Shown piece by piece: positions 7,545-64,000 of a stretch of 64,000 nt of DNA. Position 1 is the stretch's first letter, and each line of letters begins with the position of its first letter. The position numbers were made by a program, and so were the translations under genes. The notes under the pieces were generated by a model. That model worked only from the letters and a program-made list of their open reading frames with translations. It was not told the origin of the DNA and did not search any database. Source of the stretch: Marinomonas sp. UCMA 3892. Lineage in GTDB: Bacteria; Pseudomonadota; Gammaproteobacteria; Pseudomonadales; Marinomonadaceae. The DNA lies in the NCBI RefSeq assembly GCF_012726345.1, contig NZ_PTXN01000009.1, forward strand, positions 186,001 to 250,000, given 5' to 3'.

Positions 7545-8198
7545 ATGCGTTACACAGAAGCCCTTTCGACACATACGTCACAAGCGGCAAATAAAACGCT
7601 CCGCAATACTTACGGACTGTTGTCGCTTACCCTATTGTTCAGCGCCTTCACTGCGGGCTTGAGCATGGCTTTCAACTTACCCCATCCTGGCCTAATTATT
7701 ACTCTAGTAGGCTTTTATGGTTTACTTTTCCTAACACACAAATTTAAAAACAGCTCTGCTGGTATTCTTTGTGTATTTGCTTTGACTGGTTTCATGGGTC
7801 TTACCCTTGGTCCAATCCTTAGCGCTTACATGAACATGGCAAACGGCGCGAGTTTGATCATGAGCGCTTTAGGCATCACAGGTCTATCGTTCCTAGGCTT
7901 GTCTGCTTATGCATTGGTTTCAAAGAAAGACTTCAGCTTCCTTAACGGATTCATCACTGTTGGCTTCTTTGTTCTACTGTTTGCTGTAATTGCTGGCATC
8001 TTTGTTAAAATGCCTGCTCTACAAATCTTTATCTCTGCAGGTTTTGCTCTGTTCTCTGCTGCAGTTATTTTGCTACAAACCAGTGAAATCGTTCGTGGTG
8101 GTGAAACCAATTACATCATGGCTACAGTGAACTTGTATGTTTCTCTATACAACATGTTCATCAGTGTATTGTCTCTTCTTGGTATGTCTCGCGACTAA
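7545..8198 (+). CDS. yccA: Bax inhibitor-1 / YccA family membrane protein
   Basis: A 217-residue multi-spanning inner-membrane protein with about seven hydrophobic helices after a short cytoplasmic N-terminus. It shows the BI-1 family pattern: NKTLRNTYGLLSLTLLFSAF near the start, and a C-terminal helix ending in NYIMATVNLYVSLYNMFISVLSLLG. E. coli YccA modulates FtsH proteolysis of SecY; other BI-1 proteins are pH-gated Ca2+ leak channels, so the exact role is open. The start ATG has AAGGAGTT upstream. As in Pseudomonas, it immediately precedes the tus sulfur-relay genes, but a terminator at 8221 separates them. Confidence 0.88.
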   Translation: MRYTEALSTHTSQAANKTLRNTYGLLSLTLLFSAFTAGLSMAFNLPHPGLIITLVGFYGLLFLTHKFKNSSAGILCVFALTGFMGLTLGPILSAYMNMANGASLIMSALGITGLSFLGLSAYALVSKKDFSFLNGFITVGFFVLLFAVIAGIFVKMPALQIFISAGFALFSAAVILLQTSEIVRGGETNYIMATVNLYVSLYNMFISVLSLLGMSRD

Positions 8199-9673: not shown

Positions 9674-9821
9674 CCTTTAGGCCGTTAAAATCCCGATCAC
9701 ACCAAACAAAATCACCTGCAGGTCGGCCTTCAGGCTGTCAAAAGCCGGATCACACTAAACCAAATCACCTGCAGGTCGGCCTTCAGACCGTCAAAAGCCG
9801 GAGCACACCAAACCAAAACCC
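9674..9821. repeat. 53-bp tandem repeat, about 2.8 copies
   Basis: Copies start at 9674, 9727 and 9780 (the last is about 42 bp). The junction between units is CCTGCAGGTCGG then CCTTCAGGC, so each full unit holds the 8-bp palindrome CCTGCAGG. Copies differ at scattered positions. Because 53 is not a multiple of three, the array cannot encode a repeating peptide. It fills the gap between convergent tusE and cobA. Confidence 0.9.
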
Positions 9822-9875
9822 TTGACGCGCTAAAGCACGGCCCACAAAAGCCTATAAAAATGCATCAATCCAATA

Positions 9876-10619
9876 TCAATATTTACCATACCACTCTAAT
9901 TTCTTCTGCAAGTTCACAACCTCACCAATTATCAATAACGCTGGCGATTTCGCTTCATTCACCACGGACACCTCATAGACGTCTTGGATGGTGGACGTAA
10001 AAACACGTTGTTCACTGGTAGTGCCTTTTTCCACAATGGCGACTGGCATAGATGGACTCATACCAAAGCGAATCAACGACTGAGTTATGTCTTTAAGACC
10101 TGTTAAGCCCATATAAATGACCAAGGTTTGCGCTGGATGCACCAACTCTTCCCAAGGCAATTCTGTTGTTCCGTCTTTCAAATGACCTGTTAGGAATCGA
10201 ACCGACTGAGCATAATCCCGATGCGTCAACGGAATCCCTGCATATGCTGCACAACCCGCTGCTGCAGTTACACCTGGAACCACCTCAAAAGGGACCCCCT
10301 CTTCAATCAGCTCTTCAAGTTCTTCACCACCGCGCCCAAATATAAAAGGATCGCCACCTTTTAAACGCACTACCATGTGGCCTTCTTTAGCCTTGGCAGC
10401 AAGCAGGCTGTTAATCTCTTCTTGCGGAAGACTATGCAAAGACTTGGCTTTACCCACGTACATTTTTTCTGCTGACTCAGGAATTAACTCAATAATCTCT
10501 TTGCCAACCAAACGATCGTACAAAACCACATCGGCCATTTTCAATAAACGATATGCTTTTAACGTCAATAACTCAGGGTCACCTGGACCCGCACCAATCA
10601 AATAGACCTTGCCCGTCAT
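9876..10619 (-). CDS. cobA: Uroporphyrinogen-III C-methyltransferase
   Basis: A 247-residue SUMT-type enzyme that uses two SAM to make precorrin-2, the branch point to siroheme and cobalamin. Signatures are [18 protein letters not shown] (SAM-binding loop), [18 protein letters not shown] and [23 protein letters not shown]. It lacks the N-terminal CysG dehydrogenase/ferrochelatase half, so it is a stand-alone methyltransferase. It follows serS on the minus strand, but a terminator at 10643-10670 lies between them. Confidence 0.94.
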
Positions 10620-10642
10620 AACTTTCCACTATCCACTCATAC

Positions 10643-10670
10643 AAAAAAAGCCTCCGTTGAGGCTTTTTTA
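10643..10670 (-). terminator. Intrinsic terminator after serS
   Basis: The stem AAAAAGCCTC/GAGGCTTTTT (10645-10654 with 10659-10668) has a CGTT loop. It is symmetrical in A/T tails and lies 15 nt past the serS stop and upstream of cobA. Confidence 0.85.
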
Positions 10671-10684
10671 TTAGAAAATTCAGC

Positions 10685-12007
<1,323 letters not shown>

Positions 12008-56945: not shown

Positions 56946-57355
56946 TTCTCATACACCTGAGATAAGTCTTTAAAGCCTTTTAATTCAATAGCATTACCAC
57001 TTGGATCTTTAAAGAACATCGTCCATTGTTCACCTGGCATACCTTCAAAGCGAACACTCGGTGCAAGATCGAACGCAACATTGGCTTCCGTTAAGCGCTT
57101 AGCGACTTTTTGCCATTCATCAAGTGGCAAAATCAAACCAAAGTGAGGCATAGGAACAAGATGCTCACCCACTCGCCCAGTATTTGTCGTCGGGCTTGGC
57201 GTACCTAAATGTAAAGACAATTGATGACCATAAAAATCGAAGTCTATCCAGGTCTCGGTACTACGGCCTTCAATACAGCCTAAAACCTGAGTATAAAAAA
57301 GTCGTGTTTCATCTAGGGAAGTGACATGGAAAGCATAGTGAAATAAAGCAGACAT
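56942..57355 (-). CDS. VOC (glyoxalase/bleomycin-resistance) family protein
   Basis: A 137-residue single VOC module pair. The first beta-alpha-beta repeat starts FHYAFHVTSLDETRLFYTQVLGC, and the second ends MFFKDPSGNAIELKGFKD. Metal-ligand-like residues are the His in YAFHV and the Glu in AIELKG. Function is unknown; linkage to ghrA suggests a dehydrogenase-associated oxygenase, isomerase or lyase. AGGGG lies about 7 nt before ATG 57355. Confidence 0.87.
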   Translation of the reverse strand: MSALFHYAFHVTSLDETRLFYTQVLGCIEGRSTETWIDFDFYGHQLSLHLGTPSPTTNTGRVGEHLVPMPHFGLILPLDEWQKVAKRLTEANVAFDLAPSVRFEGMPGEQWTMFFKDPSGNAIELKGFKDLSQVYEK

Positions 57356-57807
57356 AAGAACCCCTAACAACAATAGATTAGGTTAGAAAATACAGCACAC
57401 AGAATAAAAGTAAACACGTATCAGTTACGCGGCAACACATAGTAAGCATTGCATAAATAAATACCTAAAACCTCCAAAAGGCCTGCGGAATACAGCAATT
57501 ACTACTTAGCTTAACCACCTCTTTCTTATTCTCAAAAATTCACATTTTAACCCTCTCACAATTACATCACACCAATCCACGACATTATTTTTGTCTATTA
57601 ATAGCATTCTCAATATGTTTTTTTGTATCAATGCTTTGTCACGTTTCATGGTGTTTTGTATCAATTTGAAAAGAGGCATATACAAGAAAATCATTATTAA
57701 TATACTGATGAAAATAGCTTATTAAATTTATTAGTCATTTTTAAAAATATTCTATTTTATTGACTACACTTACTTTGTTGAATAGTACAAACTGCTTAAG
57801 GATAAAC
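57356..57807. other. Divergent intergenic region upstream of the chemosensory cluster
   Basis: 452 bases, strongly AT-rich at the right (57660-57770). An open minus-strand frame at 57506-57694 has no ribosome-binding site and no conserved look, so I do not call it. The region should hold the promoter of the chemosensory operon. Confidence 0.45.
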
Positions 57808-58962
57808 ATGTTGCGACTTCTTCTTTGTCATTGTTTTGCGTTAGTTTTAGCTGGGATTCTAATTTATGAATCTTTAATGTGGGAAGCTATTGCGGTTCTT
57901 GCATTTTTTGGTTTTATTCCAACTTTCTTATCTCGCCCCCAGAAAAACAAACTTAAGTCTACTGACTCTTCTGGAGATCAGCCAACTATACAGCCACATC
58001 AAGCTGATCATGTATCTATTCCTGAAGCACTTTTCAGCAGAGATTTAGTGCCTTTATTAAACGTCTGTTCAGATGACCTTGGTAACGTACTTGCCACACA
58101 AAAAAGTGCCGTCGAGCTACTGAATAATGCATTTATAGATACAAATTCACTAATCGACCAACAAGCTAATTGCATTCATCGCTTAGTTGAAACAGAAAGT
58201 GATGACAGTAAATATTACAGTGAAGTCATGCGTGACTTTGCAGCACAAACAGCAACCACGCTAGATAAATTCATAGAAAGTACAATTGAAATGTCTGCGT
58301 CATCTATGGAACTGCTTTCAAAAGTAAATGAAATTCATGACGAAATGCCTGAAATAGCAAAAGCCTTAAAAGACATTGATGATATTGCAGATCAAACTAA
58401 CCTTTTAGCGCTTAATGCAGCTATTGAGGCGGCTAGAGCTGGTGAAGCCGGACGAGGATTTGCGGTTGTTGCGGATGAAGTTCGCTCCCTGTCAAATAGA
58501 TCTTCAGGCTTCAGTATTGCCATCCAATCTCGCCTTAAAAAAATTCAAGATCAAGTATCTAACTTAACAAAAGCAATGGAACGATTAGCTGCCCATGATG
58601 TGACCTATATTATGGAATCTAAAAAAACCATGAATAGCGCCCTACAACACATTGTCAACAAAGCTGAAGCCGATGCTAACATCACGTTGGAGCTAGAAAC
58701 TCTTGCGAAGTCACTAGAGTCAGCCATATATGATGCGACTAGAGCACTACAATTTGACGATATTAATAGTCAAAACCTTACCTACACCATCGAAGTATTA
58801 GATTTTATGGGCGAGCAGTTGAGTACCGTTAACGATGATTCATCAGACAATATTGAACATGTGTTAAGGGATAAATTAGAAATAATCAAACAACGTAGCC
58901 AGCAAAAACATAACCCTGTTTCTCAACAAAACATTGAAAGCGGCGACATTGATTTATTTTAA
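57808..58962 (+). CDS. Short chemoreceptor-like protein without periplasmic sensor
   Basis: A 384-residue protein. Two closely spaced hydrophobic helices (about 1-42, [21 protein letters not shown] then a second) anchor it with no room for a periplasmic ligand domain. A polar linker leads to a shortened signalling region with the receptor tip [37 protein letters not shown] intact. No HAMP domain or C-terminal tether is seen. I chose ATG 57808, with AAGGA 6 nt upstream; the frame is open 48 nt further. It resembles the receptor beside the STAS and phosphatase genes in vibrio cluster III (recollection). It is probably the first gene of the operon, 22 nt before the STAS gene. Confidence 0.85.
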
Positions 58963-58984
58963 ATAAGAACGAGGAGAAGTTCGA

Positions 58985-59263
58985 ATGTCTGATTGCATTG
59001 CGATTAATATGCCTGAAAGGTTTGATTTTAGTACACACAGCTGGTTCACAAAAACTTATGAAGAAGCGTTAACAAAGACAAAAACAATCATATTAGATTT
59101 TTCTCGTGTTTCCTATGTGGACTCTTCCGCTTTAGGGATGATGGTTCTTTTGCATCGACAATTAAATAAAGTTTCTGGCCATTGCACTATTCGAAATGCG
59201 AATGGTACTGCTAAAGACATTTTAGACATGGCTAATTTTGAGAAGCTATTTAGCTATGAATAG
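58985..59263 (+). CDS. STAS-domain anti-sigma-factor antagonist-like protein
   Basis: A 92-residue STAS protein of the RsbV/SpoIIAA type. The phosphorylation loop is VSYVDSSALGMMVLLHRQL, with S48 as the likely phospho-acceptor. In partner switches, an RsbW-like kinase phosphorylates this serine and a PP2C phosphatase reverses it (family knowledge). Both activities appear to be encoded in the next gene, which overlaps this one by 8 nt. GAGGAG precedes the ATG. Confidence 0.9.
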   Translation: MSDCIAINMPERFDFSTHSWFTKTYEEALTKTKTIILDFSRVSYVDSSALGMMVLLHRQLNKVSGHCTIRNANGTAKDILDMANFEKLFSYE

Positions 59264-60908
59264 CATAAGTAAAGTTCTTTTATTAGAGGATAATGCTTCA
59301 ACTCGCTTGATTGTGTCTAAGGCACTTCAAATAAAAGGGATTGAGGTGATATTGACATCAACGCTTGAAGAAGCTCGTCAATGTTTTGGTGATAACTCTA
59401 TAAAACTTTTCTTGCTCGATGTTCATCTACCAGATGGAATGTCAGACGAATTAATTCCACAGATTCGTCGACTCTACCCAATGGCTCCTATTCTAATGAT
59501 AACTGCGGAATATGACAGCTCGCACATGGCACGTTTGTTTGATGCGGGAGTAAAAGATTTTATTCAAAAACCCATTTTACCATTACTCTTATCAAACAAA
59601 GTACAAAGTTTTCTTGATTGGTCAGAAGTGGAATTGGCTCTATTTAGAGCTAATGAAAACTACCTCAGTATCATGCAAGAAAAAGAGCAAGAAGAAGCGC
59701 TAGCATTTTTTGTCTACGATCATATATTACATACCCACTCTTGCTCTATTGAAGGTGTTGATGTAGCCACACTCTCTAGCGGAAGGTTTTGCGGTGATAT
59801 TCTAATATCGGCAATGTCGCCGAATGGCAATTTAATTATTATGTTGGGGGACGCAACTGGCCATGGTATGGCAGCAGCTATTACTATTTACCCTATGGTT
59901 GTCACCTTTAATGCCATGGTAAAAAAAGGCCTATCAACGGGAGCAATTTTACGGGAACTTAGTGACAAACACTCTGAAACTGTCCCCAGCAATCGTTTTT
60001 TCGCCTGTATTTTAATTGAAATATCCTTAGCAAAAAACACCATTAGCATCTGGAATGGAGGAATGCCACATGTGCTTATTTTCGATAAAGAACAACAATT
60101 AATCGATAAAATTCCTGCAAAAAACATGGCTATTGGTATTTTGCTGACCAACGAAATCAGTACTAAATTCGAAACCTTTCCACTTGATAGCATTGAATAT
60201 CTTTCGTTTTTTAGTGATGGCTTAATTGAAAATAAACGTCACAAAGAAACAATGCTTACCTTTAATGATGTCTACTCCATTATTGCTGAATACCCTAGCG
60301 ATCCAGAGCACTCAATTACACGCATGCATGCCATGGAAGCAGATTTAAACAGCCACGATGACATGACCTTATGCAGCTTAAATTTAGGGACATTAAGACA
60401 AGAGCTCTCAGATACTCCTGTAGAAAAACAAAGTCCAAAAGGGAACTTTTCATTTAGTTTTGAGCTATTTGGAGACTCACTGTTGAATGATCATTTTACT
60501 TTAAAACTAGTAGAACTCATTGAAAGCTATGGCTTTTCTCAGTCATTTTGCCAGCGAGTATTCACGGTACTTACTGAATTACTCGTTAACTCTGTAGACC
60601 ATGGCATTTTAAACATCCAGTCTAACCTGAAAAAAACAGATTTTATCGCTTACCTAGACGATAGAAATGAGGCTATTCAAACCCTAAGCAATAACCAAAA
60701 GGTTGCTGTATCCGTTAATTGGGACGCCAACCAAAAAACACTGAGATTAACAGTCTCAGACTCAGGCAATGGCTATCAAGTTAAGAAAGAAATACCTATT
60801 TCAAGTGATCAAAGTTATGGCAGAGGCTTAAGCATAGTGAGTAGTTTATGTAGTGACTTTGCCTATGATCAAAATATCAACACAACACGTACGACCTTAC
60901 GTTACTAG
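59256..60908 (+). CDS. Response regulator fused to PP2C phosphatase and HATPase kinase domains
   Basis: A 550-residue three-domain protein. A receiver domain (about 1-125) has acidic E11/D12 and phospho-acceptor D55 (LLDVHLPDG). A SpoIIE/RsbU-type PP2C domain (about 165-375) has GDATGHGMAAA, WNGGMPHVLIF, FFSDGLIE and the closing H-D-D-M-T-L. An RsbW-like HATPase (about 410-550) has LTELLVNSVDHG and VSDSGNGYQV. Phosphorylation of D55 by CheA could therefore control the phosphorylation state of the STAS protein. I chose ATG 59256, which overlaps the STAS stop by 8 nt. It is followed 8 nt later by cheY. Confidence 0.9.
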   Translation: MNSISKVLLLEDNASTRLIVSKALQIKGIEVILTSTLEEARQCFGDNSIKLFLLDVHLPDGMSDELIPQIRRLYPMAPILMITAEYDSSHMARLFDAGVKDFIQKPILPLLLSNKVQSFLDWSEVELALFRANENYLSIMQEKEQEEALAFFVYDHILHTHSCSIEGVDVATLSSGRFCGDILISAMSPNGNLIIMLGDATGHGMAAAITIYPMVVTFNAMVKKGLSTGAILRELSDKHSETVPSNRFFACILIEISLAKNTISIWNGGMPHVLIFDKEQQLIDKIPAKNMAIGILLTNEISTKFETFPLDSIEYLSFFSDGLIENKRHKETMLTFNDVYSIIAEYPSDPEHSITRMHAMEADLNSHDDMTLCSLNLGTLRQELSDTPVEKQSPKGNFSFSFELFGDSLLNDHFTLKLVELIESYGFSQSFCQRVFTVLTELLVNSVDHGILNIQSNLKKTDFIAYLDDRNEAIQTLSNNQKVAVSVNWDANQKTLRLTVSDSGNGYQVKKEIPISSDQSYGRGLSIVSSLCSDFAYDQNINTTRTTLRY

Positions 60909-60916
60909 GATGAATT

Positions 60917-61282
60917 ATGAGTAAAAAACTGCTTATCGTAGATGACTCCCCTTCTGTTCGCCAGATGGTGGAAATGACCTTAAAAGGGGCTGGTTACGCT
61001 GTTAAAACAGCAAGTGATGGCCAAGCCGCACTAAACCTTTGTAAAACCGAAATGTTTGATTTTGTTCTAACCGATCAGAATATGCCTAACATGGATGGCA
61101 TAACCTTAATTAAATCGTTGCGAGCGATGCCAAGTTATGCCCGAGTCCCACTCATTGTATTAACCACTGAGGCAGGGGAAAACATGAAGCAAAAGGGTAA
61201 AGCTGCAGGAGCAACTGGGTGGATGGTGAAACCATTTGACCCTAAAAAATTGCTTGAAGTTGTTGCGAAAGTCCTTCGCTAA
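60917..61282 (+). CDS. cheY: Chemotaxis response regulator CheY-like
   Basis: A 121-residue stand-alone receiver. It has D9/D10 (LLIVDDSPSVRQMVEMTL), phospho-acceptor D53 (VLTDQNMPNMDG), T83 or T84 in VLTTEAG and K105 (MVKPFDPKKL). The sequence is that of cluster-type CheY proteins. Its output may be flagellar or non-flagellar; the cluster has no flagellar genes in view. It lies between the REC-PP2C gene and cheA, with AGGATG upstream. Confidence 0.93.
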   Translation: MSKKLLIVDDSPSVRQMVEMTLKGAGYAVKTASDGQAALNLCKTEMFDFVLTDQNMPNMDGITLIKSLRAMPSYARVPLIVLTTEAGENMKQKGKAAGATGWMVKPFDPKKLLEVVAKVLR

Positions 61283-61315
61283 ACGTCTCATTTTGCAAAT
61301 TCATTGAGAGACAGT

Positions 61316-63325
61316 ATGGATAATTTAAGTCAATACAATGAGGTTTTTTTCGAGGAGGCGCAAGAACACCTCGAAACCATGGAAACATTATTGCTCGCCT
61401 ATAATATCGATTCACCCGATATGGAAGAGCTTAATAGTGTGTTCCGTGCCGCGCACTCAATAAAAGGTGGTAGCGACATTTTTGGCTTCAAAGCTTTGAC
61501 AGGGTTAACTCATGTTATGGAAAACATGTTGGACTCTGCAAGAAACAATGAACTCACTTTAACCACTGATCTCATTACTGTTTTATTAGAAACCACCGAT
61601 GTTCTAAAAAATATTCTTAGTTGCTATCGAGAAGAAGCAGAGATCGATTGGGACATTATCGAAGCCAGTAAGGCTCGATTAAGCGCTACTCTTCAAGAAG
61701 TGACTGGCTCAAATAATCAAGTCCACTCTCCTTTAGATGAGGAAGAAGATCTCGGCTATGGTTTTTTTGATGACGATGATGCTGACACAGAAGAGGAGCA
61801 AGGTTTTGGTTTCTTTGAGGAAGACGAAAATGACTCAGAAAAAGACCAAGGTTTTGGTTTCTTTGATGAGGATGACAAAGAGCAAGAGCAAGATCAAGAT
61901 AGCAAAGCCATTGATGAAGAAAGCCTTGGGTATGGCTTTTTTGAAGAAAACAATGAGATGGCTAAAGAGGCCGAAAGTCTAACTACAGAACCTCAACCGG
62001 ATGCTAATACTGAGCATACAGAAAACATTGGTTATGGCTTCTTTAATGAAGAATTTAATAGCCCTCAAAAAGATGCAGTAACAGCACAACCTGCAGGCCT
62101 AACCTCTTCTACCGTTGCTAAACCAACACCTTCATCCAAAGCATCCGAAACGAAGGCTGAAGCAACTAGCATACGAGTCGAAACCAACAAAATTGACAAA
62201 CTCGTTAACCTAGTGGGTGAACTTGTTATTACTCAATCCATGCTGAATTTAATTGGCAGTGAAGTACCTGAAAGCATCGCCGATAAAATGCAATCAGCAC
62301 TAATTGAACTTGAGCGAAACACTCGTGAAATTCAAGAAGCCGTTATGTCGGTTCGCATGCTCCCTATTTCTTTTGTATTCAACCGTTTCCCCAGACTGGT
62401 CCGTGATTTATCAACTAAATTAGAGAAGAAAATCAACCTAGTCATCGAAGGCGGAAACACAGAAATAGACAAAAATTTAGTGGAGAAAATTTCTGATCCT
62501 CTACTACATCTAATTAGAAACAGTGTGGATCATGGCATTGAGCTGCCAGCAAAGCGACTAGAAGCCAATAAATCTGAAACTGGTATCGTGATGCTTTCAG
62601 CAGCACAAAAAGGCGGCGAAATCGTTATCACTATTACGGATGATGGTGCCGGTCTAAATCGTGAGCGAATCATAGCCAAAGCCGTTGAAAAAGGTATCTC
62701 GTTACCTGAACCGCTATCAGATAGTGCAGTCTGGCAACTTATTTTTGAAGCGGGATTTTCTACCGCCGCTGAAGTGACCGATGTTTCTGGTCGTGGCGTT
62801 GGAATGGACGTGGTAAGACGAAATATTGAATCTCTAGGTGGCCGTATTGATATCAGTTCAACCGCTGGCATGGGAACTGTATTCACCATCAATTTACCAC
62901 TGACATTAGCAATATTAGATGGCATGACAGTAGAGGCTTCTGACCAAGTATTCATTATCCCTCTTGTCAATATTGTTGAGAGTATTCAGCCCGTTGCCGA
63001 ACAAATCAAGCATATTAAAGGTAAGAAATTACTCTGGGTTCGTGATGAATACTGGCCACTAATTGATATTGGAAAAACGTTAGGAGGAAGCCCAAATGAA
63101 ACCAATATGGAAACTGGCATTGTTGTTCTAGTTGAAACATCTAAACAACGATTTGGGTTAATCATTGATTCTTTATTAGGCCAGCAACAGGTCGTGATTA
63201 AGAACTTAGAACGACATTATCGAAGAGTAGAAGGCATTGCTGGCGCAACCATAATGGGAGATGGCAGCGTGGCGTTAATTTTAGATGTCGATTCAATAAC
63301 GCAATTCATCAAATCGGACTTATAG
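61316..63325 (+). CDS. cheA: Chemotaxis histidine kinase CheA with acidic GYGFF repeats
   Basis: A 669-residue kinase. P1 (about 1-115) carries H47 (RAAHSIKGGSDIFGF). Instead of a canonical P2 domain, residues about 140-250 are an acidic linker with five copies of G-Y/F-G-F-F followed by D/E-rich sequence. P3 dimerisation (about 285-345) begins SIRVETNKIDKLVNLVGELV. P4 has HLIRNSVDHGIELPAKR, DDGAGLN and GRGVGMDVVRRNIESLGG, and P5 is CheW-like. I chose ATG 61316; a TTG 12 nt upstream is possible. It lies 12 nt before cheW. A CheA with acidic repeats occurs in Che2/cluster III-type systems (recollection). Confidence 0.94.
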   Translation: MDNLSQYNEVFFEEAQEHLETMETLLLAYNIDSPDMEELNSVFRAAHSIKGGSDIFGFKALTGLTHVMENMLDSARNNELTLTTDLITVLLETTDVLKNILSCYREEAEIDWDIIEASKARLSATLQEVTGSNNQVHSPLDEEEDLGYGFFDDDDADTEEEQGFGFFEEDENDSEKDQGFGFFDEDDKEQEQDQDSKAIDEESLGYGFFEENNEMAKEAESLTTEPQPDANTEHTENIGYGFFNEEFNSPQKDAVTAQPAGLTSSTVAKPTPSSKASETKAEATSIRVETNKIDKLVNLVGELVITQSMLNLIGSEVPESIADKMQSALIELERNTREIQEAVMSVRMLPISFVFNRFPRLVRDLSTKLEKKINLVIEGGNTEIDKNLVEKISDPLLHLIRNSVDHGIELPAKRLEANKSETGIVMLSAAQKGGEIVITITDDGAGLNRERIIAKAVEKGISLPEPLSDSAVWQLIFEAGFSTAAEVTDVSGRGVGMDVVRRNIESLGGRIDISSTAGMGTVFTINLPLTLAILDGMTVEASDQVFIIPLVNIVESIQPVAEQIKHIKGKKLLWVRDEYWPLIDIGKTLGGSPNETNMETGIVVLVETSKQRFGLIIDSLLGQQQVVIKNLERHYRRVEGIAGATIMGDGSVALILDVDSITQFIKSDL

Positions 63326-63337
63326 GGGGCATTCATT

Positions 63338-63820
63338 ATGGCAATACTTCAGCAGGGGAATACGTCTTCAATGCCTGCAAAAGAGTTCTTAACCTTTGTT
63401 CTTGGCGATGAAGCCTACGCACTCGATATTATGACGGTGAAAGAAATACGGGGATATGAACCAGCAACAAAAATAGCGAATGCGCCAAGTTACATTAAAG
63501 GAGTTATCAACCTCCGTGGCGATATTGTTCCGATTGTCGACTTACGAATTAAATTCAATATAGGTGAAGCCACTTATAACGAATGGACCATAGTGATTAT
63601 GCTAAATGTACGCGATCGCGTGGTTGGAATTGTGGTTGATGGTGTATCAGATGTAATGAACTTAGAAGCCGAAGATATTAAACCAGCACCTGAATTTGGT
63701 GTGGCTTTCGATAGCCGTTACCTACATGGGCTTGCCGCATTGGAGGACCAAATGGTGATTATCGTGGACATTGAAGAACTCATATCCAGCGATGAGATCG
63801 GTGTTTTCGAGAGTGTATAA
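63338..63820 (+). CDS. cheW: Chemotaxis coupling protein CheW
   Basis: A 160-residue CheW that links receptors to CheA. The fold markers are KEFLTFVLGDEAYALDIMTVKEIRGYEPATKIANAPSYIKGVINLRGDIVPIVDLRIKF-type sequence, with the conserved N-L-R-G, and VVGIVVDGVSDVMNL. A glycine-rich ribosome-binding site AGGGGG lies about 10 nt before ATG 63338. It follows cheA directly. Confidence 0.95.
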   Translation: MAILQQGNTSSMPAKEFLTFVLGDEAYALDIMTVKEIRGYEPATKIANAPSYIKGVINLRGDIVPIVDLRIKFNIGEATYNEWTIVIMLNVRDRVVGIVVDGVSDVMNLEAEDIKPAPEFGVAFDSRYLHGLAALEDQMVIIVDIEELISSDEIGVFESV

Positions 63821-63890: not shown

Positions 63891-64000
63891 ATGTTAAAAA
63901 GCCTATTTTCAAAGCGATTAGATGATAATCAAATGATTATCGACAAAGATGTCTGGGTAAACGCTCAAGGTCAATTAAATGCTTTAACGCGATCTCAAGC
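63891..64000 (+). CDS. Start of another gene, probably a chemoreceptor (cut by window edge)
   Basis: An open frame begins at ATG 63891 with AGGAAGGG about 8 nt upstream and runs off the window (37 codons visible: MLKSLFSKRLDDNQMIIDKD...). In Che2/cluster III-type loci the gene after cheW encodes a soluble or PAS-containing receptor, so a receptor is likely, but the visible residues are not diagnostic. Confidence 0.5.
   Translation, partial: MLKSLFSKRLDDNQMIIDKDVWVNAQGQLNALTRSQ

Follow-up and report, generated by a model that had tools for sequence, protein, structure and literature searches.

Which output does a chemosensory array serve when its operon carries a complete partner switch ahead of cheY and cheA? 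This question is raised by a 64,000-nucleotide stretch of Marinomonas sp. UCMA 3892 (contig NZ_PTXN01000009.1, positions 186,001 to 250,000; hereafter the window), part of a 5.03-Mb genome, near the end of which the gene of a STAS protein (crsA) is followed by one gene fusing a receiver (REC), a PP2C phosphatase and an HATPase kinase (crsR). A sequence-only reading of the window had proposed that CheA phosphorylates the receiver and flips the balance between kinase and phosphatase, so that the state of the STAS protein would report the chemosensory signal to an unknown target. The present analysis indicates that the locus is probably the Marinomonas version of the F7 system Che1/CrsR-CrsA, in which the array would gate the general stress response post-translationally via RpoS. 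The arrangement is already known as the Che1/CrsR-CrsA locus, and the idea has been published in outline; the loss of the receiver aspartate in one Shewanella clade and a set of repeats in the CheA linker appear from the sequence comparisons to be new points.

Organization of the operon

The features of the operon inside the window are as follows.

57802..58962, + strand: McpA-like receptor gene, N-terminal hydrophobic stretch and short MCP signalling domain (MCPsignal, 1.3e-30)
58985..59263, + strand: crsA, STAS anti-sigma-factor antagonist (Pfam STAS, E = 1.2e-12)
Within crsA: motif D46-S47-S48-A-L-G (motif position)
59256..60908, + strand: crsR, REC-PP2C-HATPase fusion of 550 aa (Pfam, alignment, predicted fold)
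60917..61282, + strand: cheY, single-domain receiver (Response_reg, 7.2e-29)
61319..63325, + strand: cheA, with Hpt, dimerisation, HATPase and CheW domains, P2 not detected (Pfam)
61754..62044, + strand: part of the cheA linker, five acidic G[FY]GFF repeats between the Hpt and dimerisation domains
63338..63820, + strand: cheW (CheW, 1e-39)
63891..64000, + strand: first part of a double-PAS receptor gene that continues past the window (protein C-terminus GWEEF)

The rest of the double-PAS receptor gene, cheR, cheD and cheB follow beyond the window on the same contig (Pfam identified the operon domains except those of CheR, CheD and CheB, which were assigned by eye). All ten genes (mcpA-like, crsA, crsR, cheY, cheA, cheW, double-PAS receptor, cheR, cheD and cheB) are co-directional from 57802 on, with short gaps or overlaps, and alternative starts are possible at 57760 for the McpA-like open reading frame (ORF) and at 61304 for cheA. 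The observation that had drawn attention to the locus was confirmed: Pfam placed Response_reg (1.6e-15), SpoIIE/PP2C (1.3e-29) and HATPase_c_2 (7.9e-8) in a single gene directly ahead of cheY, cheA and cheW, and the STAS gene overlaps this fusion gene by 8 bp. In CheA, Hpt, H-kinase_dim, HATPase_c and CheW were recognised, and no P2 model. A promoter scan of positions 57300-58000 on both strands gave five sigma-70-like sites, compared with 2.7 on average in shuffled sequence, and is uninformative.

Comparison with known systems

The same gene set, including CrsR and CrsA, forms the che1 cluster of Shewanella oneidensis (so_2117-so_2126), an F7 system that, in the available text of PMC9855816, "could be involved" in the post-translational control of RpoS. 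As described in the accessible parts of PMC6482189, both CrsR and HsbR of Pseudomonas aeruginosa bind RpoS in two-hybrid assays, the HATPase domain of S. oneidensis CrsR binds RpoS, CrsA is a substrate of CrsR, and a switch model is given; the introduction of PMC7666153 presents the Che1-RpoS link as fact, citing a 2016 paper. The genome studied here encodes RpoS (441.5 bits against a family cut-off of 378.7), and in view of this gene and the published work the unknown target of the sequence-only reading was set aside for RpoS. Likewise, the presence of both antagonistic enzymes in one regulator, which had been regarded as striking, was already known from CrsR and HsbR. The interpretation as an RsbU/RsbV/RsbW-style partner switch holds, with the difference that phosphatase and kinase are separate in Bacillus, whereas they reside in one 550-aa protein here. 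SypE-SypA of Vibrio fischeri likewise has a response regulator in which kinase, receiver and phosphatase are joined and which acts on a STAS protein; the domain order differs, and the input comes from a hybrid kinase pathway.

The likeness to Che1/CrsR-CrsA extends to all ten genes, found in the same order in 10 Shewanella stretches, to a three-domain CrsR with a STAS partner and to GFGFF-type CheA repeats, which these 10 Shewanella also have. In a CheA tree, the window CheA, putatively of the F7 class, groups with Shewanella CheA. The differences are that Shewanella CrsR is 30-31% identical to the window CrsR, that the receiver carries D55 here and Asn in locus L199, taken for S. oneidensis, and that the sensory part of the receptor between cheW and cheR shares 24% over 155 aa with that of S. 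oncorhynchi. HsbR-HsbA of P. aeruginosa has the REC-PP2C-HATPase architecture, the STAS partner and RpoS binding in common with the window pair, but HsbR is fed by HptB and hybrid kinases (available text of PMC6482189) rather than by an operon CheA, and the window CrsR falls outside the Pseudomonas HsbR-like clade. An assignment of the window CrsR as the HsbR orthologue was ruled out by the CrsR tree together with a separate HsbRA-like pair in the genome. The resemblance to Vibrio cluster III named in the sequence-only reading was borne out by tblastn in a Vibrio locus (L185), where F7-like che genes and an McpA-like gene are accompanied by STAS and CrsR-like genes at the end. There, unlike in the window, the partner-switch genes follow cheB, and CheA contains a P2-like domain but lacks repeats, as in all 12 such clusters compared; for the 11 non-Vibrio ones, whose CrsR were included in the tree, CrsR groups on the side of HsbR.

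Distribution and phylogeny of CrsR

From a genome scan with the CrsR alignment the best 80 of 529 confirmed loci were kept, and 40 of 65 other CheB-listed places as well as stretches of the own genome were added, resulting in 102 CrsR-like genes, two doubles included. Twenty-one, counting the window, lie just before cheY and cheA ('front' loci), 19 after cheB ('back' loci), one before cheD and 61, mostly from Pseudomonas, elsewhere. The hosts of the 'front' loci were Marinomonas, Shewanella, Alteromonadaceae, Reinekea, Cellvibrio and further genomes or metagenome-assembled genomes. The survey of other genomes that the sequence-only reading had suggested thus returned matches to McpA, CrsA, CrsR, CheY, CheA and CheW in this order at all 21 'front' loci; cheR, cheD and cheB come next in 20, L060 being truncated, and in 19 the interval from cheW to cheR holds a receptor match (L054 has none). 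All 10 further Shewanella stretches showed the full ten-gene order. Distantly related genera share this gene order, so the arrangement is not a product of chance.

A CrsR tree of 62 rows, including 20 of the 58 'other' rows (every third) and the own-genome pair, contained a fork supported at 100/99. One side held all 21 'front' CrsR, five Nitrincola/Marinospirillum-type 'back' rows (including an identical pair) and a single odd row, and the other side held the Pseudomonas HsbR-like proteins, the 14 remaining 'back' proteins and both own-genome paralogues. The window CrsR groups with Shewanella CrsR, the inner Marinomonas-Shewanella forks being weaker (84/89, 84/34); the tree is unrooted and has several long branches. 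Since CrsR proteins of che clusters occur on both sides of the fork, the partner switch appears to have joined che clusters at least twice, in separate lineages, or to have been exchanged. Among the matches listed, the closest named relatives of the window CrsR were those of Marinomonas polaris (89%) and M. lutimaris (79%), and at least seven named Marinomonas species had a close relative; two of 12 other sampled genomes of the genus did (52%). A class-wide search of 274 genomes for Shewanella-type CrsR at 1e-90 returned none and is uninformative, the positive genomes not being named. In the Nitrincola/Marinospirillum clusters (L061, L067, L071, L111 and L146), a second cheD lies directly 3' of crsR, and its product resembles the window CheD more than the cheR-adjacent CheD does.

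Catalytic residues and predicted structure of CrsR

The window CrsR retains the PP2C residues D181, D199, D321, D368 and D369, the HATPase residues E441, N445, D502, G504, G506, G522 and G524 (N-box, G1 and G2) and the receiver residues E11, D12, D55, T83 and K105. D55 was thus correctly named beforehand as the receiver aspartate, and the loss of PP2C metal ligands or of the N-box, for which an alignment had been advised, was not found, all being present. Conservation was assessed across 100 aligned CrsR-like proteins with at least 440 aa (21 'front', 19 'back' and 60 other, with two genes doubled, L011 = L183 and L067 = L146). The PP2C aspartates were present in all 100, E441 and N445 in 99, D502 in 98 and G522 in 97, and the phospho-acceptor position held Asp in 95, Asn, His and Ala in one each and a gap in two. 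The predicted structure (mean predicted local distance difference test, pLDDT, 85.7; predicted template modelling score, pTM, 0.55) has a 53-residue helix (109-161) linking receiver to PP2C, which fits the linker mechanism described in the available text of PMC12143880. Its best matches among solved structures were P. aeruginosa RssB and then the RsbU-RsbW part of Rv1364c, at low whole-chain TM-scores (0.30-0.43 by query length). NCBIfam gave no above-cut-off match for CrsR among 25 of 64 families.

Loss of the receiver aspartate in a Shewanella clade

Among 97 genomes from the genus of S. oncorhynchi, 12 had a CrsR match at 1e-60, and the phospho-acceptor position was Asn in seven and Asp in five (for one Asn case, L064, the residue was taken from the DNA ahead of a frameshift). 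The six Asn-type proteins in the tree form one clade (100/99), and a single loss of the aspartate therefore suffices to account for them. In three Asn-type proteins, that of L199 among them, the second acidic residue is missing as well, and in four the Thr/Ser position is occupied by Asn. At the Asn-type loci, CrsR keeps its PP2C and HATPase residues, and CheA its Hpt motif and repeats. The receiver residues argue against phosphorylation of the CrsR receiver by CheA in the seven Shewanella proteins; in Marinomonas it may take place.

L199, which has the che1 gene order, is presumably S. oneidensis MR-1. If so, CrsR has been studied in an organism unable to use the usual receiver phosphate, and CheA-to-CrsR transfer would be better tested in Marinomonas or another Asp-bearing species. 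The survey thus names informative hosts, as the D55-bearing Marinomonas CrsR can be tested for phosphotransfer and the receiver site of the Asn-type Shewanella CrsR cannot be phosphorylated. Nothing on an Asn in the CrsR receiver was found in the available text of PMC6482189, PMC9855816 and PMC12632262, and it may be in print in the primary papers.

Repeats and P2 in the CheA linker

Repeats were counted as [GAS][FY][GSA][FL]F in the linker between the Hpt and dimerisation domains; they lie in an acidic setting, and most read G[FY]GFF with D or E as the next residue (15 loci with cut or unusual CheA, one being the genome's other CheA, stand outside the count). At least two repeats were present in all 21 'front' CheA (83 in total against 0.14 expected from composition shuffles), in two of 14 'back' CheA and in one of 17 CheA with no CrsR in the fetched stretch, and the 10 further Shewanella CheA carry two or three each; CheA of the clade has 2-6. 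Both 'back' exceptions, L111 and L146, have a CrsR from the 'front' side of the tree. The repeat-bearing CheA with no CrsR in the fetched stretch belongs to the che cluster L134 (G094; two repeats), and L132, also with no CrsR in its stretch, has a single copy.

A P2-like profile built from 12 'back' CheA segments, each recovered also when left out, matched all 12 source CheA, five of the 17 CheA with no CrsR and none of the 21 'front' or 10 further Shewanella CheA; L146 and L111 were matched weakly (0.0012 and 0.0087). Pfam recognised P2 in none of 10 CheA, not even in those with a P2-like domain by this profile. The predicted L146 linker shows the beta-alpha-beta-beta-alpha-beta order of P2 at a pLDDT of about 80-89, followed by a repeat region of low confidence and no secondary structure, and Foldseek matches of its P2-like domain to the solved P2 structures 1ffg, 1ffs, 1u0s and 1a0o were weak (E 0.012-0.043, none at 0.001). 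P2 alone, P2 with repeats and repeats alone thus all seem to occur; the loss of P2 is common among CheA at large, according to the main text of PMC10782961 that was available, in which the words 'motif' and 'repeat' occur 0 times. None of the papers searched combined 'CheA' with 'GFGFF', and a single viral scan with CheA gave no relative.

The repeats represent a candidate means for a P2-less CheA to find its response regulators. That they persist where the CrsR receiver has lost its aspartate argues against a role confined to phosphotransfer to CrsR, and the correlation of repeats with CrsR would also be expected from shared descent of CheA and CrsR in the absence of any contact. The genome's other CheA (L182:9810-12059, - strand, G000:C29) has, by eye, linker repeats of the form DEFExLLDxLxG, which resemble the Vibrio CheA region bound by ParP/ParC.

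The serine of CrsA

The motif in which S48 had been named as the phosphorylation site is present (D46-S47-S48), but the assignment of the serine is doubtful, S47 being the more likely equivalent of S56, the residue mutated in P. aeruginosa HsbA (available text of PMC6482189). In 52 STAS ORFs of loci L069-L127, mostly from Pseudomonas, the motif aspartate is residue 55 in 30, the other 22 differing in start codon or length; HsbA S56 would hence correspond to CrsA S47, and not S48, if numbered alike. The STAS proteins of L062, L065, L071, L111 and L185 read DSAALG, DSAGIG or DSAGLG, keeping the first serine and missing the second, which suggests that the first one (S47 in the window) is phosphorylated. 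Two STAS genes stand in tandem at both Cellvibrio loci.

Proposed mechanism and alternative explanations

Receptor input sets the autophosphorylation of CheA, as is established for CheA in general. Gene content and order, the integrity of domains and catalytic residues, clade membership and rpoS were observed directly here; every biochemical step in Marinomonas is inferred. Receptor input would set CheA autophosphorylation, and CheA would pass phosphate to CheY and presumably also to D55 of CrsR. By analogy to RsbU and RssB, phosphorylated D55 might order the crossing helical linker and pair the PP2C domains, and the paired PP2C domains would dephosphorylate CrsA. Following the published S. 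oneidensis model, unphosphorylated CrsA would then occupy the HATPase domain of CrsR and free RpoS, whereas at low input this domain would phosphorylate CrsA and hold RpoS. Binding of RpoS by the window CrsR would be the simplest state, because the stand-ins for the RpoS-binding CrsR (S. oncorhynchi and S. hafniensis for S. oneidensis) and HsbR (other Pseudomonas for P. aeruginosa) fall on opposite sides of the 100/99 fork. Chemosensory control of the general stress response is itself a proposal in the literature, as far as the available texts go.

Several points weigh against this RpoS-directed phosphorelay. No phosphotransfer from CheA to CrsR is described in the available text of PMC9855816, where the wording is "could be involved" and "probably"; CrsR and CheY might compete for CheA, with CheY perhaps as the true output. 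Ten of the 12 sampled congeneric genomes have distant relatives only. With Asn in seven of 12 Shewanella CrsR, four of which have further receiver changes, the phosphate step is not needed for whatever keeps the operon together in these Shewanella. An array that reaches CrsR by docking on CheA or CheY, possibly via the CheA repeats, with the receiver as a protein-binding domain and D55 phosphorylation absent or secondary, would explain why the Asn-type clade (100/99) keeps the gene order, PP2C and HATPase residues, Hpt motif and repeats, and why the 'front' loci with no detected P2 have repeats. This explanation is nevertheless unlikely, if the strongest of the alternatives, as 19 of the 21 'front' loci, all but two Shewanella ones, keep the aspartate, Lys is kept in all 21 and Thr or Ser in 20 (one gap), and five of the 12 Shewanella CrsR keep Asp. 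A combination of both, in which CheA of the clade swapped a folded P2 for a flexible GFGFF chain recruiting CrsR (with or without CheY) to the array, and Marinomonas signals by the D55 phosphate while one Shewanella lineage does so by docking alone, is a speculative and rather improbable proposal; if true, a two-component link would have been caught turning phosphate-free.

The STAS protein could also report elsewhere than to RpoS, for example to a diguanylate cyclase or a flagellar-cascade anti-sigma factor, since the homologue HsbA of P. aeruginosa acts on the cyclase HsbD and on FlgM as well (available text of PMC6482189), which itself counts against the RpoS route. A GGDEF-EAL-looking protein is encoded two genes past cheB on the opposite strand (L009:12980-15400, - strand, by eye), and the separate HsbRA-like and RssBC-like pairs of the genome imply that roles may be divided. 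None of the ten operon genes encodes a cyclase, however, and the window CrsR groups with Shewanella CrsR and not with HsbR, making such a target improbable. Very unlikely indeed is a chance or decayed pseudo-enzyme fusion with no switching function: of the three CrsR domains, HATPase gives the weakest match (7.9e-8) and 10 of 12 congeneric genomes sampled have no close relative, but Marinomonas, Shewanella and Cellvibrio all retain the same operon, and with every checked catalytic position present in the window CrsR this candidate was rejected.

Sensory input and other partner switches

The double-PAS part of the window receptor, already distant from that of S. oncorhynchi, is unlike its counterpart in M. 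spartinae (L053) but shares 59% identity over 244 aa with the one at an Alteromonadaceae locus (L059). Receptors in the slot between cheW and cheR end in WEEF, WESF or WEQF at the 'front' loci compared, and the extra receptors of L050 and L051 have no such ending. The output half is constant across these loci and the sensor exchanged, even inside one genus.

In addition, the genome has two further STAS-linked PP2C regulators. The HsbRA-like pair (L183:5847-7565 and 7572-7874, G000:C29) lies among fliK-, fliM- and fliI-like genes (by eye), and Pfam reported no HATPase domain for its HsbR-like protein, though it is full-length. The other pair (L184:9483-9785 and 9794-10945, G000:C7) comprises a STAS protein with the motif DSAALG and a REC-PP2C protein, like RssC-RssB of P. 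aeruginosa. Together with the window pair, three switches of this genome may act on a single sigma factor.

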